Positions 309-27,154 of a stretch of DNA of 32,314 nucleotides are shown here, one piece after another. The number at the start of each line of letters is the position of its first letter. Position 1 is the stretch's first letter. The notes below the pieces were generated by a model. That model searched no databases. It had not been told where the DNA came from and saw only the letters and a program-made list of their open reading frames with translations. Origin of the DNA: an uncultured Clostridia bacterium (GTDB lineage Bacteria; Bacillota; Clostridia; Oscillospirales; Acutalibacteraceae); the NCBI GenBank assembly GCA_946637545.1, contig CAMPBI010000005.1:1-32314 (forward strand), in the 5' to 3' direction. The translations under genes were made by a program, and so were the position numbers.

Positions 309-1199
309 ATGAGTAATACTAACGACGAATTGCAGACTCTCATCTTTAAGCCAATTAATTTATCGGACGGGGACAGAGTCGAAAACATACGAAAAAAATC
401 AAACAACACCCTTTACCTTTACACCTTTGCTTCGCTGTTTGCGTGGCAGGAGGACGAGCAATACGAAATTTGCTTTGGCGACAACGCCTTCCTTGTGAAA
501 AACGGCGCGGAAGGTGAACACGCATATTTGTTTCCCTGCGGAAGCGATGAGGGGAAGAAAAAGCTTCTTGATTCTCTTTTGAACAACGAAAAACCGGAGC
601 TTTATTCGTTGACAGACGAGGACAAAGCATTTCTTGAAGATGCGTATCCCGGATTATTTGTCTTTGAAGAACGCCGCGATGAATTTATTTATCTGTTTGA
701 CAAGGACGCGCAAATCGAACTGAAGGGCAAGGAGTACAAAAAACAGCGCCATCAGATTCACATAGGCAAAAACTCGGCAGAAAAATGGACCACCGAGCCC
801 ATAACAGCTGCGAATATTGACCGCGCATTAGCTCTGAATGCCAAGTGGGCTGAAAATAAGGGCAGCTATGTACTTGCAGACTTAACCGCTGCAAAGTGCG
901 CGCTTTACAATTTCGACAGCCTTTCAATGTGGGGGCTGCTGTTTCAGGCGGACGGCGAGGACGCGGCATATGTTACAGGCTCGTTCATAACACCCGAAAT
1001 ATTTGATTTGAGCTTTTGCAAGGTGCTTGGCGACAGGCGTGATTTCTTTGTACGCTGGAAGTTTTTTTCATCCTTGCCGCAGGAGGTCAGAATAATTGAC
1101 TCTGAAGAGGACCTCGGAATTGAAGGACTGCGAATCAACAAGCTTTCGCGTCACCCGTCAGAACTGATACGAATTTGGAAAGGCAGCATAAAACAATGA
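309..1199 (+). CDS. DUF2156 family protein (phosphatidylglycerol lysyltransferase C-terminal-like acyltransferase fold)
   Basis: 296 aa ORF; N-terminal 'LIFKPINLSDGDRVENIRKKSNNTLYLYTFASLFAWQ' and overall layout resemble DUF2156. No clear Shine-Dalgarno before the ATG. Stop overlaps the next start (ATGA). Confidence 0.75.
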   Translation: MSNTNDELQTLIFKPINLSDGDRVENIRKKSNNTLYLYTFASLFAWQEDEQYEICFGDNAFLVKNGAEGEHAYLFPCGSDEGKKKLLDSLLNNEKPELYSLTDEDKAFLEDAYPGLFVFEERRDEFIYLFDKDAQIELKGKEYKKQRHQIHIGKNSAEKWTTEPITAANIDRALALNAKWAENKGSYVLADLTAAKCALYNFDSLSMWGLLFQADGEDAAYVTGSFITPEIFDLSFCKVLGDRRDFFVRWKFFSSLPQEVRIIDSEEDLGIEGLRINKLSRHPSELIRIWKGSIKQ

Positions 1200-2932
1200 G
1201 CAAACTCACCGCACCAAAAAGCCATACCTTTACTGACCGTATGTTCCGTCGGTTTTTTCTGCCTACCTTGCTGTCAGCGCTTGGATGGGCTCTGGGCGAT
1301 GTTGCAGACGCCCTTTTTGTCGGTATGCGGCTTGGCAAGGTCGGACTTGCAACTATGTCGATTGTCGCCCCCGTTTATATGATTTATAACGTGCTTGATG
1401 TCGGCATTGCCGTGGGCGCGTCGGTAAAATACGCGCAGGCGCTTGGCAAGGGCGATGCAAAGACAGGTGTTAATTGTTTTTCACAGATGACAATTGTGTC
1501 CGTAATAACAAGCATTGCTGTCGGAATAATCGGACTTCTCGGTATGCCTTTTATTTTGCGATTTCTCGGTGCAGGCTCGCAGCACAGCGAGCTGTGGAAC
1601 TACACAAAAGAGTATTTGCAGATTATGTTTATCGGCGCACCGTTTACATTTTTATACTTTCTGCTTTACTACTGCGTTCGCTGCGACGACAACGAAAAGC
1701 TCGCAAGCGCAGGCTATACAATCGGCTTTCTTACAGATGTTGTGGCAAGCGCCGTATTTATTATGGGCTTCAAGCTTGATGTGCGCGGAGCAATTTATGC
1801 TACCGTGCTCGGAAAAGCAGTCGGCGTGCTGATTTTCCTTTTTCACTTTACAAGAAAATGGACAATCCTGCGCTTTCACTTTGTCAAGCTTGAATTAAAA
1901 ACAATCACCTCTGCACTTAAAACGGGAATGTCATCGTCGTTCGGTTATGTGGGGCAGTTTATTGCTCTGCTTGTTGTAAACAAGCTTTTGCTGCGCATCG
2001 GCGGTTCAAGCGGACTTGCGGTGTTCAATGTTGTGCAGGACGTTTCTTACGTAGCGCTTGCGATTTATACGGCACTCGGCGATACGGTGCAGCCTCTCAG
2101 CGCAACCTTTTACGCCGAGCACAACAAAACAGCTGTAAAACGAATTATGTCGCTCGGTATGCTGATAGGCATTATGAGCGGCGGTGTGATTTCAATGGTG
2201 TTCGCATATTTTGCGCCATTAGTCTGCCGGCTTTTCGGCTTGAGCGGCACTTCAATCATCACCGGCTCTTTCGCCGTGCAGATGTTCTGCCTGTCAGTCA
2301 TTCCCGCCGGAATCAATATTATCTGGAGCTCTTGCTTTCAGGCAATCAAAAAAGAACGGCTTGTATTTCTTATTAATCAGCTCCGCACCTTTGTATGCTT
2401 CCTCGGATTAGCACTTGTGCTTTCACATTTTGGGCTCAAATGGTTTTGGTTCACTTTTCTGTGTGCGGAAATTCTCACACTGATTATTTGGGTGCCTGTC
2501 GCAATTTCAAAAAAGCAGGACGAATCGTCAAAGGTGTTTACATATTTGCTTGATACAAATTCCTCGGATATTTCCGAGCTGCTTTTAAAGGCTGAAGAAT
2601 TCTGCGACAAAAACAATGCCAATATGAAACAGAGCTACTGCGTTTCGATGTGTGTTGAAGAGGTCTGTCAGGCAATTATTGAAAATGCTTTCAATCAAAA
2701 GGGCGACGAGTATATCCAGCTTACGCTCTGCTTTGAAAAAGACGGAACCGTAGTTATTCATATGCGTGACAACGCGGTAAAGTTCAATCCGTTTGCAATG
2801 AAAACGGGCAGCGATTATGACGACGACGAGCAGCTTGCTTCACTTGGTATTCAGATGGTTAAAACAAAATCAAAAAGCTTCTTTTATCGCAGATATTCCG
2901 GCTTTAACACACTTACTGTGGAGGTGGAATAG
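1196..2932 (+). CDS. MATE-family efflux transporter fused to a C-terminal anti-sigma-factor-type HATPase (HATPase_c_2-like) domain
   Basis: About 440 aa polytopic MATE-like region followed by a soluble domain with N-box-like 'SMCVEEVCQAIIENAF', G1-like 'MRDNAVKFNPF' and 'ASLGIQMVKT'. Start set at 1196 (4 bp overlap with upstream stop) instead of 1175. Confidence 0.82.
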   Translation: MSKLTAPKSHTFTDRMFRRFFLPTLLSALGWALGDVADALFVGMRLGKVGLATMSIVAPVYMIYNVLDVGIAVGASVKYAQALGKGDAKTGVNCFSQMTIVSVITSIAVGIIGLLGMPFILRFLGAGSQHSELWNYTKEYLQIMFIGAPFTFLYFLLYYCVRCDDNEKLASAGYTIGFLTDVVASAVFIMGFKLDVRGAIYATVLGKAVGVLIFLFHFTRKWTILRFHFVKLELKTITSALKTGMSSSFGYVGQFIALLVVNKLLLRIGGSSGLAVFNVVQDVSYVALAIYTALGDTVQPLSATFYAEHNKTAVKRIMSLGMLIGIMSGGVISMVFAYFAPLVCRLFGLSGTSIITGSFAVQMFCLSVIPAGINIIWSSCFQAIKKERLVFLINQLRTFVCFLGLALVLSHFGLKWFWFTFLCAEILTLIIWVPVAISKKQDESSKVFTYLLDTNSSDISELLLKAEEFCDKNNANMKQSYCVSMCVEEVCQAIIENAFNQKGDEYIQLTLCFEKDGTVVIHMRDNAVKFNPFAMKTGSDYDDDEQLASLGIQMVKTKSKSFFYRRYSGFNTLTVEVE

Positions 2933-2935
2933 CCT

Positions 2936-3763
2936 ATGAAAGAATCAATCCGCATTGCAGAAAAAAAGGACATTCCCGCGCTTTGTGAAATCTGGAAAGA
3001 ATCCTTCTCTGACAGTGACGAGTATATCCGGTATTTTTACAGCGAAAACTTTGAGCGCATCAAGGTGCTTGTTTACGATGTCGACTCCAAACCTGTGAGT
3101 GCTGTAAATATAATTGACGCTGAATTCGTAAACAAAAATGAAAGCCGCAAGGCAAAATATCTGTACGCAGGCGGCACTCTTTTGGCTCACCGTAAAAAAG
3201 GATATTTTAACGCACTTCTAAAATTTATTGTCGAAACTGAAACAATGCACGGTTGGGGACTGTTTTTAAAGCCGGCTTCACAAAAGCTTACTGAATACTT
3301 TGTACAATTAGGGTTTGAAATTGATTCATACTTTCGCTTTCTGACGGTATCTCCGGGTAGCTTTCAGCCGATTTCAGCGTTGGATATTTCTTACAGCGAC
3401 TACAATCGTATGAGAAACAAGGCTTATTCAAACCTCCCGTTTGTACGTTGGGACGACGCACATCTTTGCTGGTGCGTTAAAGAAAATGAGTATTATTCCG
3501 GCAGAACACTAAAGATTACAATTGACCAAAAGGATTATTTCCTTATGGGCTATCCCGAAGATAAAACGCTGATAATTAATGAAACAAATCTTTCACCCGA
3601 CCAAATCAGGCAGGCAAGCCGCGCCTTGTGTGATTTGTTCGGCACTGAACAGATAAAAGCGTATATGCCCGATTTTTCCTGTAAAGAGGGAGAGCGCATT
3701 TTATCGTCGGTAGTTTATAATTTGCCTATTCGCAATACTTACACAAATCTTATTTTGATTTAA
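2936..3763 (+). CDS. GNAT family N-acetyltransferase
   Basis: 275 aa; GNAT-like core 'YLYAGGTLLAHRKKGYFNALLKFIVE...GWGLFLKPASQKLTEYFVQLGFE'. 3 bp gap from the MATE gene. Confidence 0.7.
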   Translation: MKESIRIAEKKDIPALCEIWKESFSDSDEYIRYFYSENFERIKVLVYDVDSKPVSAVNIIDAEFVNKNESRKAKYLYAGGTLLAHRKKGYFNALLKFIVETETMHGWGLFLKPASQKLTEYFVQLGFEIDSYFRFLTVSPGSFQPISALDISYSDYNRMRNKAYSNLPFVRWDDAHLCWCVKENEYYSGRTLKITIDQKDYFLMGYPEDKTLIINETNLSPDQIRQASRALCDLFGTEQIKAYMPDFSCKEGERILSSVVYNLPIRNTYTNLILI

Positions 3764-3779
3764 AGGAGCGTTATCTGTA

Positions 3780-5876
3780 ATGAAAAAAAGCAAAAATAGA
3801 AAGAATATATCGCTGCGAAAAAAAGCAATATCACTTGTTTTGTTTGCTGCCACGTTGTTATCTCTCATCACCGTTTCGGTCAGCGGAATTTTTTACAGCT
3901 TTAATATGTTTGACCATTACAAGCTGCTTGCCGAACAGCTTGCAGACACCGCCGCTTCGATGATGAGCGCCGAGGATATTACACGGTACTATAACGAGGT
4001 CAAACAAATCGGTCCTTATGATGACGATAAATATAATAACGACGAGTCCTACCGCGAGGCATACGACAAAAAGGTCAACGCCCTGAAGGATGAAGAATAT
4101 CAGCAAATGCTTGACACTCTTTTTACCTTTGAGGACCAGTCGAAAAACAGAAACGACATTAAGTATATTTACGTTCAGGTGCTTGAGGGCGACCATGTTA
4201 CATATATTTTTGACGCGGACCATACGGAGGACCAGTATCAGCTCGGAACAGTGCGTCCGGTATCGGCGGAGGTTATTGATGAGGACGGGCTTGAAAACGG
4301 CGTTCCTGCGTTTACATCAAATGACCCTGACGACGGTTGGCTTTGCTCGTGTATGAGACCTGTCAGAGACGCTGACGGCAAACCGGTTGCCCTTGTCGGC
4401 GTTGATATTTCGATGAGCAGGGTTGTAAAGCTCGGTGTTGTATATTTGATTACACTTATTGCAATCGTTCTTTTCATTACAGCTCTGTTAATCTGGATTC
4501 TCATCAGAGGCGTTGAAAAATCTTTGGTAAAGCCAATCAATAAGCTTTCAAAAGCAGCAAGAAGCTTTGTTGAGGACAAGGGCGAGGAACTGAACAAGGA
4601 ATCAACTATTTCAAAACTCAATATTCACACAGGCGACGAGGTTGAAACCCTGTGGGAATCCATTCGGCATATGGAGCAGGAAATTAACGCATACATAACG
4701 CATTTAACTGCTGTTACCGCCGAAAAAGAAAGAATCGGTGCAGAGCTTGAGCTGGCAACAAGAATTCAGGCGGATATGCTTCCAAATATTTATCCCGCTT
4801 TTCCGGAGAGAGACGACCTTGACATCTATGCAAGTATGACGCCTGCAAAAGAGGTCGGCGGCGACTTCTACGACTTTTTCCTTGTTGACGATTCACATCT
4901 TGCAATGGTTATGGCAGACGTTTCGGGCAAGGGTGTTCCGGCAGCGCTCTTTATGATGATGAGCAAGATTCTTATTCAAAACACAGTAATGAACGGCAAA
5001 TCTCCTGCCGATGCGTTAATGACGGTAAATAATCAGATTTGTGCAAACAACCGCGAGGAGATGTTTGTAACAGTATGGCTGGGTATTGTGGACCTCAAGA
5101 GCGGACTGCTGACTGCGGCAAACGCAGGCCATGAAAAGCCGATAGTAAAATCACCTGACGGCGAATTTGAATTTTTCAGCGACAAGCACGGCTTTGTTAT
5201 CGGCGGTATGGATGGACTGAAATACCATAACTACGAAATTCAGATGAGCAAAGGCTCAAAACTGTTCTTGTATACAGACGGTGTTGCTGAAGCAACAAAC
5301 GAGTCAAAAGAGCTTTTCGGAATTGAAAGAACGCTTGATGCACTAAATAGCTGCAAGGACGCTTCGCCAAAAACTATTCTTGATGCAGTAAAACAATCCG
5401 TTGACGCATTTGTCGGTACAGCGCCGCAGTTCGACGACCTCACAATGCTTTGCTTTGAGTTTAAAGGCAAAGAAAAAAATTTGACCGTTGACGCAACACT
5501 CGACAATGTGGCGACTGTAATTGACTTTGTTGAAAACGAGTCGCACAAACTGCCGTTTTCAAAAAGAAGCGTTAATCAGCTCAATATAGCTGTTGACGAA
5601 ATCATCAGCAATGTTGCAAGATACGCCTATGGCGAAGGCACAGGACAGGTGAGCGTTAGTATTGACAGCGACAGCGAAGGCATCACGTTAACAGTGACCG
5701 ACGGCGGAACACCGTACAATCCGCTTGAAAAAGATGACCCCGACATCTCTCTTTCAGCTGATGAAAGAGGAGTCGGCGGCTACGGAATATTCATTGTCAA
5801 GAACACAATGGACAAGGTCGATTACGACTATAAAGACGGCAAAAACATCCTTACTATTCGCAAAAATTACGATTAA
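3780..5876 (+). CDS. Membrane SpoIIE-family PP2C phosphatase with extracytoplasmic sensor, HAMP-like linker and C-terminal HATPase domain
   Basis: 698 aa; N-terminal TM, extracellular region, second TM, PP2C/SpoIIE motifs 'ATRIQADMLPNIYPAFPERDDLDIYASMTPAKEVGGDFYDFFLVDDSHLAMVMADVSGKGVPAALFM', C-terminal 'LNIAVDEIISNVARYAYGEG...VTDGGTPYNPLEKDDPD...GGYGIFIVKNTMD'. Confidence 0.9.
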   Translation: MKKSKNRKNISLRKKAISLVLFAATLLSLITVSVSGIFYSFNMFDHYKLLAEQLADTAASMMSAEDITRYYNEVKQIGPYDDDKYNNDESYREAYDKKVNALKDEEYQQMLDTLFTFEDQSKNRNDIKYIYVQVLEGDHVTYIFDADHTEDQYQLGTVRPVSAEVIDEDGLENGVPAFTSNDPDDGWLCSCMRPVRDADGKPVALVGVDISMSRVVKLGVVYLITLIAIVLFITALLIWILIRGVEKSLVKPINKLSKAARSFVEDKGEELNKESTISKLNIHTGDEVETLWESIRHMEQEINAYITHLTAVTAEKERIGAELELATRIQADMLPNIYPAFPERDDLDIYASMTPAKEVGGDFYDFFLVDDSHLAMVMADVSGKGVPAALFMMMSKILIQNTVMNGKSPADALMTVNNQICANNREEMFVTVWLGIVDLKSGLLTAANAGHEKPIVKSPDGEFEFFSDKHGFVIGGMDGLKYHNYEIQMSKGSKLFLYTDGVAEATNESKELFGIERTLDALNSCKDASPKTILDAVKQSVDAFVGTAPQFDDLTMLCFEFKGKEKNLTVDATLDNVATVIDFVENESHKLPFSKRSVNQLNIAVDEIISNVARYAYGEGTGQVSVSIDSDSEGITLTVTDGGTPYNPLEKDDPDISLSADERGVGGYGIFIVKNTMDKVDYDYKDGKNILTIRKNYD

Positions 5877-5880
5877 AAAA

Positions 5881-5908
5881 CGCCTCGGTTCATACCTGAA
5901 CCGAGGCG
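5881..5908. terminator. Hairpin terminator, probably bidirectional
   Basis: Perfect 12 bp stem cgcctcggttca-tacc-tgaaccgaggcg; A-rich 5' flank and T-rich 3' flank; lies between the PP2C gene and the minus-strand remnant. Confidence 0.85.
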
Positions 5909-5917
5909 TTAAAATTA

Positions 5918-22434: not shown

Positions 22435-23868
22435 ATGAATGACGCAAAAAAATCAGAGATAAAAAAGACCGGCGGATTCCTTTTAAGTGCAATCTGCCTT
22501 TTTTTGGTGTTTGCATTTCTGTTTAATATAGTTTCCACTATCCTTGTTCAGCCGCACGACGACAGAAGCTACTCAATGATTCGCGGCTTTTATGAGGAAG
22601 AGGAAAACTCGCTCGATGCCGTTTTTATCGGCTCAAGCACATCTTACACAGACTGGAACGCCGCAATCGCGTGGGAAAACTATGGCATTACCGGCTTTTC
22701 GTTTACCTCGCCCGCGCAGCATTTTGCCGCGCAGGAGTATCTTTGCAAAGAGGCTCGCAAAACGCAGCCAAACGCCGTTTACGTTTTTAATCTCGTTCCC
22801 ATCTGCGAATATTTTGACGGCGACGAAACATACGGTTATCACGCGCTGCTTGACTATATGCCGCTTTCGCTCAACAAGCTGAAAATGACAAAGGTCCTTT
22901 GCGACGACGCCGGCTTTGACTACAGGGAGAGCGCCGAATATTTTGTTCCGCTTGTAAGGTACCACAGTGCGTGGAATACCTGGGACGGCAGCAATATGCA
23001 CAAGGAATTTGACGGCTACAAGGGAGTTCCTCACTATGTCAGGTTTTTACGGAGCCGATATAATGTTGACGGCGAATTCAAAGAGATAACCGAAAGGGCA
23101 GAGCTCAAGGGCGACCTTGAAAAAATTAAAAACGACGTTCAGAGCCTGCTTGATTATCTTAAGGAGGAAAACGTCAACGCGATGTTCCTTGTAACACCCA
23201 CTGTCGGTAAGGATAAAATTATTTACGAGTGCATTAATTCCGCTGCCGATATGGCAAGGGAAGCAGGCTTTACCGTTGTTGACTTTCAGAACAAAAAAAT
23301 GCTTGAATCAATTGAACTTGATTTTACAAAGGATTTTTATAATCACAACCATCTCAACATTCACGGTGCGCTCAAGATGACCGAATACCTCTGCGAGTAC
23401 CTTACAAATAATTATGACATCAAGGACAAGCGTGAGGATAAAAGCTTTTCTGCCGCGCAGGGCTGGGACGACGTTTTCACGAAGCTGAAAGCAAAAATGT
23501 CACCGTATGTTCTGCCGCAGGAATATTATATGAATGTGGATTATACTTACTCCGCGCCGAGCGTTTCAGTCAGCGTTTCAGACGATAAGGCTGACACTTA
23601 CAACGTTTCGTGGTCTCACGAGGAATCAGCCGGCAGCTACACTCTTTACAGAAAAGACAGATACACGTCGACTTGGAATAAGGTCGCTGAATTTGACGGC
23701 AGCGTCAGCACCTTTACCGATACTTACAAGGTCGAGAATTCCGAAGAGGACGGACCGTACTACACGGTTATTGCAAGCAAAAATGAGGGCGGCAAAACCG
23801 TATGGAGCAATTACAACTACAAGGGCGTTTACATCCCTGCTGACCTGAGAACAGGAGGGCAAAAATGA
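22435..23868 (+). CDS. SGNH/DltD-like membrane-anchored protein with C-terminal fibronectin-III-like domain
   Basis: N-terminal TM; 'AVFIGSSTSYTDWNAAIAWENYGITGFSF' Ser motif; late 'DFYNHNHLNIHGALKMTEYL' Asp/His motif; C-terminal 'APSVSVSVSDDKADTYNVSWSHEESAGSYTLYRKD'. Confidence 0.78.
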   Translation: MNDAKKSEIKKTGGFLLSAICLFLVFAFLFNIVSTILVQPHDDRSYSMIRGFYEEEENSLDAVFIGSSTSYTDWNAAIAWENYGITGFSFTSPAQHFAAQEYLCKEARKTQPNAVYVFNLVPICEYFDGDETYGYHALLDYMPLSLNKLKMTKVLCDDAGFDYRESAEYFVPLVRYHSAWNTWDGSNMHKEFDGYKGVPHYVRFLRSRYNVDGEFKEITERAELKGDLEKIKNDVQSLLDYLKEENVNAMFLVTPTVGKDKIIYECINSAADMAREAGFTVVDFQNKKMLESIELDFTKDFYNHNHLNIHGALKMTEYLCEYLTNNYDIKDKREDKSFSAAQGWDDVFTKLKAKMSPYVLPQEYYMNVDYTYSAPSVSVSVSDDKADTYNVSWSHEESAGSYTLYRKDRYTSTWNKVAEFDGSVSTFTDTYKVENSEEDGPYYTVIASKNEGGKTVWSNYNYKGVYIPADLRTGGQK

Positions 23869-25466
23869 GTTATCAGACCGTTAATTTCCTGCTGTTTTCG
23901 CTTGCGATATTAATCGTATATTACCTTGCCGGTGCAATCAGCGGCAAGCTGCAAAAATATATTCTGCTTGCAGGCAGCCTTGTATTTTACTATATCGGGG
24001 GCGCAAAGTACCTTCCGTTTTTAATCACAACGCTTTTGATTTCGTACCTTTCGGGACTGATAATGCAGCGCATTCATAACAAGGCTGAAGTAAGCCTTGA
24101 AAAATGCGAATCACCTGCGGACAAAAAGCTTGTGCGAAAAAAGGCAAAGACAAAAACAAAAATTGTCCTCAACCTTTCAATGCTCATTCCGATAGCGCTG
24201 CTTGTCGTGTGCAAGTACACAAAATTCATCATCAAAAGCACAAACCTTGTTCTTTTAAAAGCAGGCTCGTCGCATCATTTTGATGTAATCAATTTCATTC
24301 TTCCTGTCGGAATTTCGTTTTACACGCTTATGGCGCTCAGCTATATGCTCGATATATACTGGAAACGCTATAAGGCAGAGAAGAATCTTATCAACTACGC
24401 AGCATATCTGACTTTTTTCCCGCACATCGTGCAGGGACCGTTTGACCGCTTTAACAAGTTTAACGACCAGATTAAGAACGGAATAAAATTTGACCCGTAC
24501 AATATCCAAAGCGGCGTAATGCTGATTATCTGGGGCTTTTTCAAAAAGCTTGTAATTGCCGACAGACTTGCAATGTTTGTCGACACGATATTTGACAATT
24601 ACACCGAGTATCACGGATTTATCATAATCCTTGCCACGATGGTTTATTCTGTTCAGATTTACGCCGATTTCTCGGGATGTATCGACATCGTATCGGGCGT
24701 CAGCGAATGCTTTGGCATCAAACTTGCCGAAAACTTTAACCACCCGTATTTCTCAAGAACGATGATGGAGTTCTGGCGCAGATGGCACATCTCGCTTCAG
24801 GAGTGGTTCAAGGATTACATCTATTTCCCTGTGTCAATGAGCGGCTTTGTGAAGGGCGTCAAAAAATCCGCAAAGAAAAAGGGCAACAAAAAAGCCGGCG
24901 AGCTTTTCGCCTCGTGCTTCCCGATTCTGATTGTGTGGATTGTAACGGGCATATGGCACGGCGCAAGCTGGAAATACGTTACATGGGGTATGTTCCATGC
25001 GTTTCTTCTGATTTCAAGCAAGGTGTTTGAGGACACTAACGCCAAAATCACCAAAGCGCTCAAAATCAGAACAGAGTCGTGGGGCTTTGCCCTTTTCCAG
25101 ATGACGCGTACATATATGCTGTGCTGCGTGGGCAGACTGTTTTTCAGAGCGCCGCGTCTCACCGCGTCGGCAGGACTTATCAAAAATATATTCAACGAGG
25201 GCTTCGGCTGGAGCTATCTCGGCTTCGAAAAGCTTGCAACATACGGACTTGACCTGAACAACATTTTTGTTTCCGTTATTGCAGTAATTGTTCTTCTTGC
25301 AGGTGATATTCTGCAGGAAAAAATGAATGTCAGAAACAAACTTATCACTGAAAACAGCTTTGTTTTGCGCTGGTGCCTTATTCTTCTCGGCGTTTTTGCC
25401 GTAATCATTTTCGGCATCTATGGCCCCGGCTACAATGCAAGCAGTTTCATATATCAGGAATTCTAA
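23865..25466 (+). CDS. MBOAT family O-acyltransferase (DltB/AlgI-like)
   Basis: 'FFPHIVQGPFDRFNKF', 'YADFSGCIDIVSGVSECFGIKLAENFNHPYFSRTMMEFWRRWHISLQEWFKDYIYFP', 'VTGIWHGASWKYVTWGMFHA'. Confidence 0.95.
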   Translation: MSYQTVNFLLFSLAILIVYYLAGAISGKLQKYILLAGSLVFYYIGGAKYLPFLITTLLISYLSGLIMQRIHNKAEVSLEKCESPADKKLVRKKAKTKTKIVLNLSMLIPIALLVVCKYTKFIIKSTNLVLLKAGSSHHFDVINFILPVGISFYTLMALSYMLDIYWKRYKAEKNLINYAAYLTFFPHIVQGPFDRFNKFNDQIKNGIKFDPYNIQSGVMLIIWGFFKKLVIADRLAMFVDTIFDNYTEYHGFIIILATMVYSVQIYADFSGCIDIVSGVSECFGIKLAENFNHPYFSRTMMEFWRRWHISLQEWFKDYIYFPVSMSGFVKGVKKSAKKKGNKKAGELFASCFPILIVWIVTGIWHGASWKYVTWGMFHAFLLISSKVFEDTNAKITKALKIRTESWGFALFQMTRTYMLCCVGRLFFRAPRLTASAGLIKNIFNEGFGWSYLGFEKLATYGLDLNNIFVSVIAVIVLLAGDILQEKMNVRNKLITENSFVLRWCLILLGVFAVIIFGIYGPGYNASSFIYQEF

Positions 25467-25484
25467 AAAATAAGGAGAATCATT

Positions 25485-25706
25485 ATGGACGAATTACTTG
25501 AAATGCTTTCGGAAAAATTCCCGAACATCGACTTTGAAAACGAGGACAAGCTCTACGAAAAGGGTATTCTCGATTCAGTATCGGTAGTTGAAATTATTTC
25601 AGAGATTGAGGATATGTTTGACGTGTCTGTATCAATGGAGTACATTCAGCCCAAATACTTTGAATCTGCACAGGCAATGTGGGATATGATTGAGGAACTT
25701 TCATAA
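25485..25706 (+). CDS. Acyl carrier protein (DltC-like)
   Basis: 73 aa; phosphopantetheine site 'YEKGILDSVSVVEIISEIEDMFDVSV'. Confidence 0.9.
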   Translation: MDELLEMLSEKFPNIDFENEDKLYEKGILDSVSVVEIISEIEDMFDVSVSMEYIQPKYFESAQAMWDMIEELS

Positions 25707-27154
25707 TGGTAAAATCTGTTGTGGAGGCAGTTTTTGAGGGTGCGGCAAAGCACCCTCAAAAATGCTGTCTGGCGGACGATAATGTTAGCGTAACTTATGA
25801 CGAATACGCAAAAAAAATCAAAAAATTTGCCGCTTATCTTTTGTCGCAGAATGTTAAAAGGGGCGACAAGGTTGTAATCGAGGCGTGCCAGAGCGTTGAC
25901 TATCTCGCAATTCAGCTTGCGTGCCAGCTTATCGGCGCAGTTTTTGTGCCTGTCGAGCACAACTGCGCGGCAGAAAAAATTGCAGAGCTTTCAAAGCGTG
26001 TGAACGCAGCGTATGTGATTGCGGTTAAAGATAGCGACGGCGTTACCTTTGACGAGTTTGCAATCGGCGCAGAAGGTGCAGCAGAGCTTGAAAACTATAC
26101 TCTGCCGCAGGGCGACGAGGTGTGCGAAATCCTGTTCAGCACAGGAACGACGGGCAAGGAAAAGGGAATAATTCTCACCCACAAAAACGACATTGCGCTT
26201 GCCGAAAACGTTATGTACGGCGTTGAGATGAAGGAGGACAATGTCGAGCTTATTCCGTCGCCGCTTAATCACTCGCACGGACTGCGCAGGTACTATGCAA
26301 ATATGGTGATGGGCGCAACCGTTATCGTTATTTCGGGCGTGCTTAATCCGCTTAAGTTTTTTGCACTGATGGACGAGTACGGAGTTACGGCAATTGACCT
26401 TGTGCCGACTGCGCTTACAGTGCTGCTCAAAATTTCAAAAAACAAGTTCGGCGAGTATAAGGACAAGCTGCGCTATATTCAGTTCGGCGCCGCTCCGCTT
26501 ATGGATGCCGACAAGGAAAAAATCTGCGCGCTCCTGCCGAACACAAGACTGTATAATTTTTACGGCAGCACCGAGAGCGGCTGCATTGTGATTTATAATT
26601 TCAATGTTGAAAACGCCAAGAAAAACTGCATCGGCAAGCCTGCTTGCAACGCGGAAATTACGATAGTTGACGACAACCGCAACCCGATTGAATCCTCACT
26701 TGAAAATACGGGACTGCTTGCCTCAAGGGGCGCAATGAATATGAGCGGTTACTACGAGGACGAGGAGGAAACGAAGGCTGTTCTTATTGACGGTGTTGTT
26801 TACACGAACGACGTCTGCTATATTGACGGTGACGGCGACATTATTCTGCTTGGCAGACAAGGCTCCGTTATGAATGTCGGCGGCAAAAAGGTTTCACCCG
26901 ATGAAATCGAAAATGCCGCAAAGCAGATTAAGGGCGTTATCGACTGCGGCTGCGTGCCTGTCGACGACGCAATGCTCGGCTCTGTGCCGAAGCTTTTTGT
27001 GCAAACGCGAAACGAAAGTGCCTTTGACCCCGTTATGATAAGAACGGAGCTGTCAAAAACACTCGAACCGTTCAAGATTCCAAAGTACATCGTGTTTATT
27101 GAAAAAATCCCTCGTACCTTCAACGGCAAAATAATCCGCAGAGAATTAAAATAA
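25706..27154 (+). CDS. AMP-dependent acyl/amino-acid ligase (DltA-like / acyl-CoA synthetase superfamily)
   Basis: 'LFSTGTTGKEKGIILTHKND', 'LYNFYGSTESGC', 'ILLGRQGSVMNVGGKKVSPDEIE', 'IPRTFNGKIIRREL'. Confidence 0.93.
   Translation: MVKSVVEAVFEGAAKHPQKCCLADDNVSVTYDEYAKKIKKFAAYLLSQNVKRGDKVVIEACQSVDYLAIQLACQLIGAVFVPVEHNCAAEKIAELSKRVNAAYVIAVKDSDGVTFDEFAIGAEGAAELENYTLPQGDEVCEILFSTGTTGKEKGIILTHKNDIALAENVMYGVEMKEDNVELIPSPLNHSHGLRRYYANMVMGATVIVISGVLNPLKFFALMDEYGVTAIDLVPTALTVLLKISKNKFGEYKDKLRYIQFGAAPLMDADKEKICALLPNTRLYNFYGSTESGCIVIYNFNVENAKKNCIGKPACNAEITIVDDNRNPIESSLENTGLLASRGAMNMSGYYEDEEETKAVLIDGVVYTNDVCYIDGDGDIILLGRQGSVMNVGGKKVSPDEIENAAKQIKGVIDCGCVPVDDAMLGSVPKLFVQTRNESAFDPVMIRTELSKTLEPFKIPKYIVFIEKIPRTFNGKIIRRELK

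Follow-up and report, generated by a model that had tools for sequence, protein, structure and literature searches.

A four-gene operon on the plus strand of a 32,314-nucleotide stretch of DNA from an uncultured Clostridia bacterium (the window; contig C5 of a 1.5-Mb assembly, 92% complete) appears to encode a partner switch that acts on a transporter as output, a reading to which we assign a probability of about 0.55. The operon (309-5876) comprises the genes for an LPG_synthase_C protein (LPG_C), a MATE transporter fused to a C-terminal GHKL domain (MATE_H), a GNAT and a sensor PP2C fused to a GHKL domain of its own (PP2C_H). PP2C_H would write and erase a phosphate on a STAS protein, and the MATE tail would read this protein and thereby gate export. 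The idea that a transporter is coupled to a STAS/PP2C partner switch came from a sequence-only reading of the window; at the level of sequence, it is supported by conserved co-occurrence and by a predicted SpoIIAB/RsbW-like fold.

In the proposed mechanism, the membrane protein PP2C_H would sense an external cue and control whether a small STAS protein of the SSAGLR type is phosphorylated: The GHKL domain of PP2C_H would phosphorylate the conserved Ser, and its PP2C domain would remove the phosphate. The cytoplasmic GHKL-derived domain of MATE_H has kept the predicted fold of a STAS kinase but lost key residues of the ATP site. We infer that this tail would read the STAS state by binding one form of the protein, that binding would gate transport by either opening or closing the exporter, and that the substrate would be a small acyl- or aminoacyl-conjugated product of neighbouring enzymes, here LPG_C and GNAT, elsewhere a reductase-ended NRPS or GH3. 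The computed evidence comprises the anatomy and conservation of the operon, the linkage to STAS, PP2C and kinase genes, the fold of the tail, motif loss in the MATE-linked and motif retention in the PP2C-linked GHKL domain, and the grouping of the fusions in one clade. Together, this suggests that in gut and rumen Clostridia a signalling switch of a kind so far linked mostly to gene control starts and stops the export of a home-made compound through a MATE exporter.

The four-gene operon and its conservation

The first gene (309-1199) encodes a putative aminoacyl- or acyltransferase of 296 aa (LPG_synthase_C, DUF2156; Pfam PF09924, E = 7.6e-19). Its stop codon overlaps by 4 bp (ATGA) with the ATG at 1196 that starts the mate gene (1196-2932; 578 aa). 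The MATE protein matches PF01554 in two stretches (best E = 3.4e-25), which points to the 12-TM family, and HATPase_c_2 (E = 4.2e-7) in a C-terminal GHKL domain of the SpoIIAB/RsbW fold (2516-2929), assigned from an AF2 model, Foldseek matches and motif counts. Exactly 3 bp downstream follows the gnat gene (2936-3763; 275 aa; Acetyltransf_9, E = 3.6e-10) and, after exactly 16 bp, the gene for a membrane sensor of 698 aa (3780-5876) with a SpoIIE-type PP2C (PF07228, E = 4e-50) and a canonical GHKL domain (HATPase_c_2, E = 1e-23). Gene calls, Pfam and the sequence itself confirmed the four same-strand genes and their spacings as originally described. Just 3' of the final stop codon, a strong inverted repeat of 14 pairs (5879-5910, plus strand) can be read directly from the sequence as a candidate transcription terminator; it was listed on the minus strand, where the T run is longer. 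No curated NCBIfam family reached the cut-off for the window proteins, and PADLOC found no defence-system match for the four operon proteins. Elsewhere in the window (22435-27151), a 477-aa protein of unknown function, an MBOAT acyltransferase and an AMP-binding enzyme are encoded in a row that resembles a D-alanylation (Dlt-like) set.

With the fused MATE protein as query against 84,980 genomes, 38 related loci were obtained, which are named as Clostridia-type MAGs, many of them from ruminant rumen or gut. As the search started from a fused protein, it is informative about the neighbouring genes and not about the fusion. The order LPG_C - MATE_H - GNAT - PP2C_H is complete in 33 loci and unbroken up to the contig end in the remaining five. 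The LPG_C orthologue occupies the same place in all related loci that reach it, and the GNAT is the conserved third gene. The flanking genes vary. An order that is kept while the surrounding genes change is not due to chance; conserved co-occurrence, whose absence had been named beforehand as a ground for rejection, was thus found. In one relative (L145:4617-6298), MATE_H is encoded by two frames, with the break in the membrane part.

Two GHKL domains and their proposed STAS partners

PP2C_H is arranged as TM, extracellular domain, TM, linker, SpoIIE-type PP2C and GHKL. Its GHKL domain has intact N, G1 and G2 boxes as in an RsbW-type kinase, and the E, N, D, G and GGxG motifs are kept in 21 of 21 relatives. 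SpoIIE/RsbU-type PP2Cs are also found adjacent to the MATE-GHKL genes of other lineages. The sensor domain yielded a model of moderate quality (pLDDT 76) with mixed Foldseek matches (a WalK model, dCache, IclR). By its domains, PP2C_H of the window is the proposed kinase and phosphatase of the STAS protein.

The tail of MATE_H is different. A sequence-profile search of the PDB returned only SpoIIAB at an E value of about 0.9, so that a structural route was needed. The AF2 model (pLDDT 88.8) has its best PDB matches in SpoIIAB (1til, 1tid), UsfX (8ih8) and RsbW (6m37), with SiaB lower down; the GHKL fold, whose absence had been named as a ground for rejection, was therefore recovered in the prediction. 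In all 36 window-type tails, however, Ala stands in place of both the N-box Asn and the G1 Gly, and G2 lacks its first Gly pair, while the catalytic-base Glu is kept. A reading of the N-box exchange in the window tail as Asn to Gln was rejected, as the aligned residue is Ala. The tail thus lacks the N-box Asn and G1 Gly by which an RsbW/SpoIIAB-type kinase handles Mg-ATP, and the MATE-linked ATPase domain, which had been taken for a STAS kinase, is probably none. From its sequence, it looks like a kinase-derived domain for docking or reading STAS, whose phosphate would be added by the PP2C-linked GHKL domain or by a canonical kinase encoded separately. In the other MATE-linked lineages, the ATP lid is shorter. 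The N-box Asn is retained in lineages B, C, D, E, F and G, so some of these tails could still bind ATP; further, separate losses were found in types H, I and J as well as in L240, L244, L245 and L246.

The observation that the window contains no STAS gene holds for the window itself, but not for the system: Among the 33 loci with at least 300 bp of upstream sequence, 14 have a STAS gene directly upstream of LPG_C as first gene of the operon, and in others it lies elsewhere in the genome. In L012, a STAS and STAS-APH pair is located just downstream of the operon. A search for STAS proteins outside the window, proposed by the sequence-only reading, revealed two adjacent genes, again a STAS and STAS-APH pair, on contig C75 of the same genome, and STAS and HATPase_c_2 genes are present in all 37 genomes with window-type loci. 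The missing STAS gene is therefore a matter of gene order and not of absence. The inventories of the window's own genome rest on family searches, and that of STAS and kinase genes is not exhaustive because the assembly is incomplete: No SpoIIAB was found in it, while SpoIIE-like, SigG and SigE-type genes are present. A third HATPase_c_2 gene of this genome (contig C33) was discarded as a partner since it is situated, as judged by sequence, among hydrogenase and NuoE-type genes.

The phosphorylation-site motif SS(A/S)GLR is found in 17 of 17 STAS proteins. A site of this type is common to the STAS proteins encoded in MATE_H operons (SSAGIR in L111), which differ from SpoIIAA-like relatives (MDSSGIG). 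Seven window-type operons end with a PP2C that lacks the GHKL domain (L015, L019, L024, L029, L031, L033, L042). None of the six among them with enough upstream sequence has an adjacent STAS gene, compared to 11 of 18 operons in which a kinase is present, as a domain or, in L044, as a gene of its own. The six operons speak against the gating reading. The chance of such a joint loss is C(13,6)/C(24,6) = 0.013 by direct count over related and thus non-independent genomes, so that a linked loss of the PP2C-attached GHKL domain and the adjacent STAS gene is suggestive only.

A STAS domain fused to an APH/TIGR02172 kinase-like domain is encoded next to a small STAS gene on contig C75 (L046:3196-4632) as well as in L112 (2540-4174) and L113 (3810-5405). 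This pair forms a further switch module, frequently found together with PP2C_H, and the STAS-APH protein of some genomes ends in a fused canonical GHKL domain. In three distant genomes, a protein of about 195-205 aa without Pfam match but with a faint likeness to the GHKL N-box region is encoded beside STAS and MATE_H (L149:1232-1816, L154:3250-3864, L246:2411-2995).

A wider family of MATE-GHKL fusions

Following HATPase hits in the genomes of relatives led to L109-L113, whose MATE-GHKL proteins are 21-24% identical to that of the window and are encoded in compact operons with STAS and either PP2C_H or a STAS-APH-kinase fusion. Separate, divergent lineages with about 20-30% identity, some of these loci among them, are found in operons built from the same parts: MATE_H-STAS-PP2C_H (L109, L110, L241), STAS-NRPS-MATE_H-PP2C_H (L111), STAS-MATE_H-x-PP2C-kinase (L153), STAS-GH3-MATE_H-PP2C-kinase (L156) and STAS-PP2C-MATE_H-STAS_APH_kinase (L149).

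When 391 sampled genomes of the class were searched for the window-type tail, 13 were positive besides the window's own, and 11 of these 13 loci have a STAS, PP2C or RsbW-like kinase gene within about 5 kb. A broader tail profile gave strong matches in MATE_H-size frames in about 25 of the 391 genomes (~6%), that of the window included. Among 16 further loci, seven have switch genes within about 5 kb and six directly follow reductase-ended NRPS genes; one has both. Outside the window's genome, 18 of 29 MATE-GHKL loci thus have a STAS, PP2C or RsbW-like kinase gene within about 5 kb; 11 have none over this distance, which speaks against a switch in every case. Within about 1 kb, a switch gene is present at 14 of 29 fused MATEs versus 0 of 34 unfused ones (Fisher p = 2e-6), whereby the counts for the fused genes were taken from coordinates, the 29 include closely related loci, and the unfused set (MATEs of the class with high scores, together with five of the window's own genome) is not a matched sample.

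In quick tree searches with some long branches, the membrane parts of the fused MATEs form one clade against the 34 unfused MATEs (SH-aLRT 100), and so do the MATE-linked GHKL domains against those of the kinase type (SH-aLRT 88). The subgroups of both trees match. This pattern fits one old fusion that was inherited as a unit.

The recurrent biosynthetic neighbours of MATE_H are enzymes that transfer acyl or aminoacyl groups: LPG_C and GNAT in the window type, two GNATs in the L146 type (Pfam was run on L146), GH3 in L156 and L245, and an NRPS with a reductase in L111, L236, L238, L239, L241, L243 and L244 (assigned by Pfam in L111 and L236, by similarity in the other loci). L109 and L110 show the terminal part of an NRPS. 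NRPS, GH3 or GNAT genes beside other family members raise the likelihood that an acyl or aminoacyl product is exported, and export of a small conjugated product by MATE_H would be the natural conclusion from these gene neighbourhoods. More broadly, we tentatively propose, at somewhat less than even odds, that widespread exporters of Clostridia are gated post-translationally by a STAS switch via a pseudokinase docking domain and release the products of neighbouring NRPSs, GH3 enzymes or aminoacyltransferases. In two genomes, the gene of a Bmp/PnrA-like substrate-binding protein of 616-630 aa neighbours that of MATE_H (L148:1831-3681, L152:5661-7553).

Alternative roles of the tail and known partner switches

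Information might also flow in the opposite direction. The transporter would then be a sensor whose tail retains STAS or phosphorylates it as an active kinase, so that substrate flux alters a STAS protein that acts elsewhere, on a sigma factor or on expression. The gene linkage would be the same as for gating, the N-box Asn is kept in types B, C and D, and transporters as co-sensors have precedent. Nevertheless, this is unlikely: The Asn and the G1 Gly are lost in every window-type tail, no sigma-factor genes were noticed in the operons with the limited set of profiles used, and the PP2C protein already has an extracellular sensor of its own. A tail that is only a structural relic or a dimerisation module, with four genes that share a transcript but no switch that controls the transporter, would agree with the degenerate ATP site and with the family members that lack a nearby switch gene. 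We consider it quite improbable, as the domain is highly conserved (75% mean column identity in type A), has been kept over deep divergence and keeps rejoining STAS, PP2C and kinase genes in new orders. Least credible, and very improbable, is that the tail sequesters a SigB-, SigF- or SigG-type sigma factor as a membrane-bound counterpart of the anti-sigma factors RsbW and SpoIIAB. Anti-sigma factors are the best structural matches of the tail, and the genome encodes SigG- and SigE-type sigma factors, but those identified are sporulation-type factors encoded on other contigs, and the MATE_H neighbourhoods, screened with a limited profile set made here and with Pfam on selected proteins, showed no sigma gene, though a sigma factor or regulator could have escaped this screen.

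Most of what is known about partner switches concerns the control of sigma factors. RsbU/RsbV/RsbW and SpoIIE/SpoIIAA/SpoIIAB share with the proposed gating switch a PP2C phosphatase, a STAS phosphoprotein and the GHKL fold. In these classical systems, the GHKL protein is soluble, active and holds a sigma factor, whereas in the window one of the GHKL domains is fused to a MATE transporter and has lost ATP-site residues. Outputs other than sigma factors are known from BtrU/BtrV/BtrW of Bordetella (secretion) and SiaA/SiaB/SiaC/SiaD of Pseudomonas (c-di-GMP); neither is a small-molecule exporter or fused to a GHKL domain. In Vibrio fischeri, SypE is both serine kinase and phosphatase and sets the state of the STAS-only protein SypA, and the output is no known sigma factor (PMC8256260); there, the target of SypA is unknown, and no transporter with a GHKL reader domain is involved. 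In SulP/SLC26 transporters, the cytoplasmic part is likewise tied to a partner-switch fold (PMC8256260), but there the STAS domain is part of the transporter, while the MATE protein of the window is fused to the GHKL partner and STAS comes from a gene of its own. MATE exporters (TIGR00797, FepA-like) belong to the same 12-TM family; the unfused ones compared here have no GHKL tail, and the fused ones form their own clade.

Neither a MATE-GHKL/STAS exporter system was described in the open-access literature searched, a review of transporter modulation included, nor, in a limited literature search, an exporter for reductase-ended NRPS products of gut or rumen Clostridia, for which MATE_H is a candidate. 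For several STAS proteins, among them SypA, RbaV and HmpV, the target is still unknown (PMC8256260). In the window, a transporter fused to a STAS-binding fold presents itself as a likely target, which would provide a route from an outside signal to the release of a metabolite without a transcription step. If true, the partner switch would act on a transporter directly, and gut bacteria would have a common point at which small-molecule export is controlled. Pairs of PP2C_H and STAS genes without an intervening MATE_H gene lie beside NRPS genes in L115, L116 and L118 and beside other genes in L250, a hint that the switch can have further outputs.
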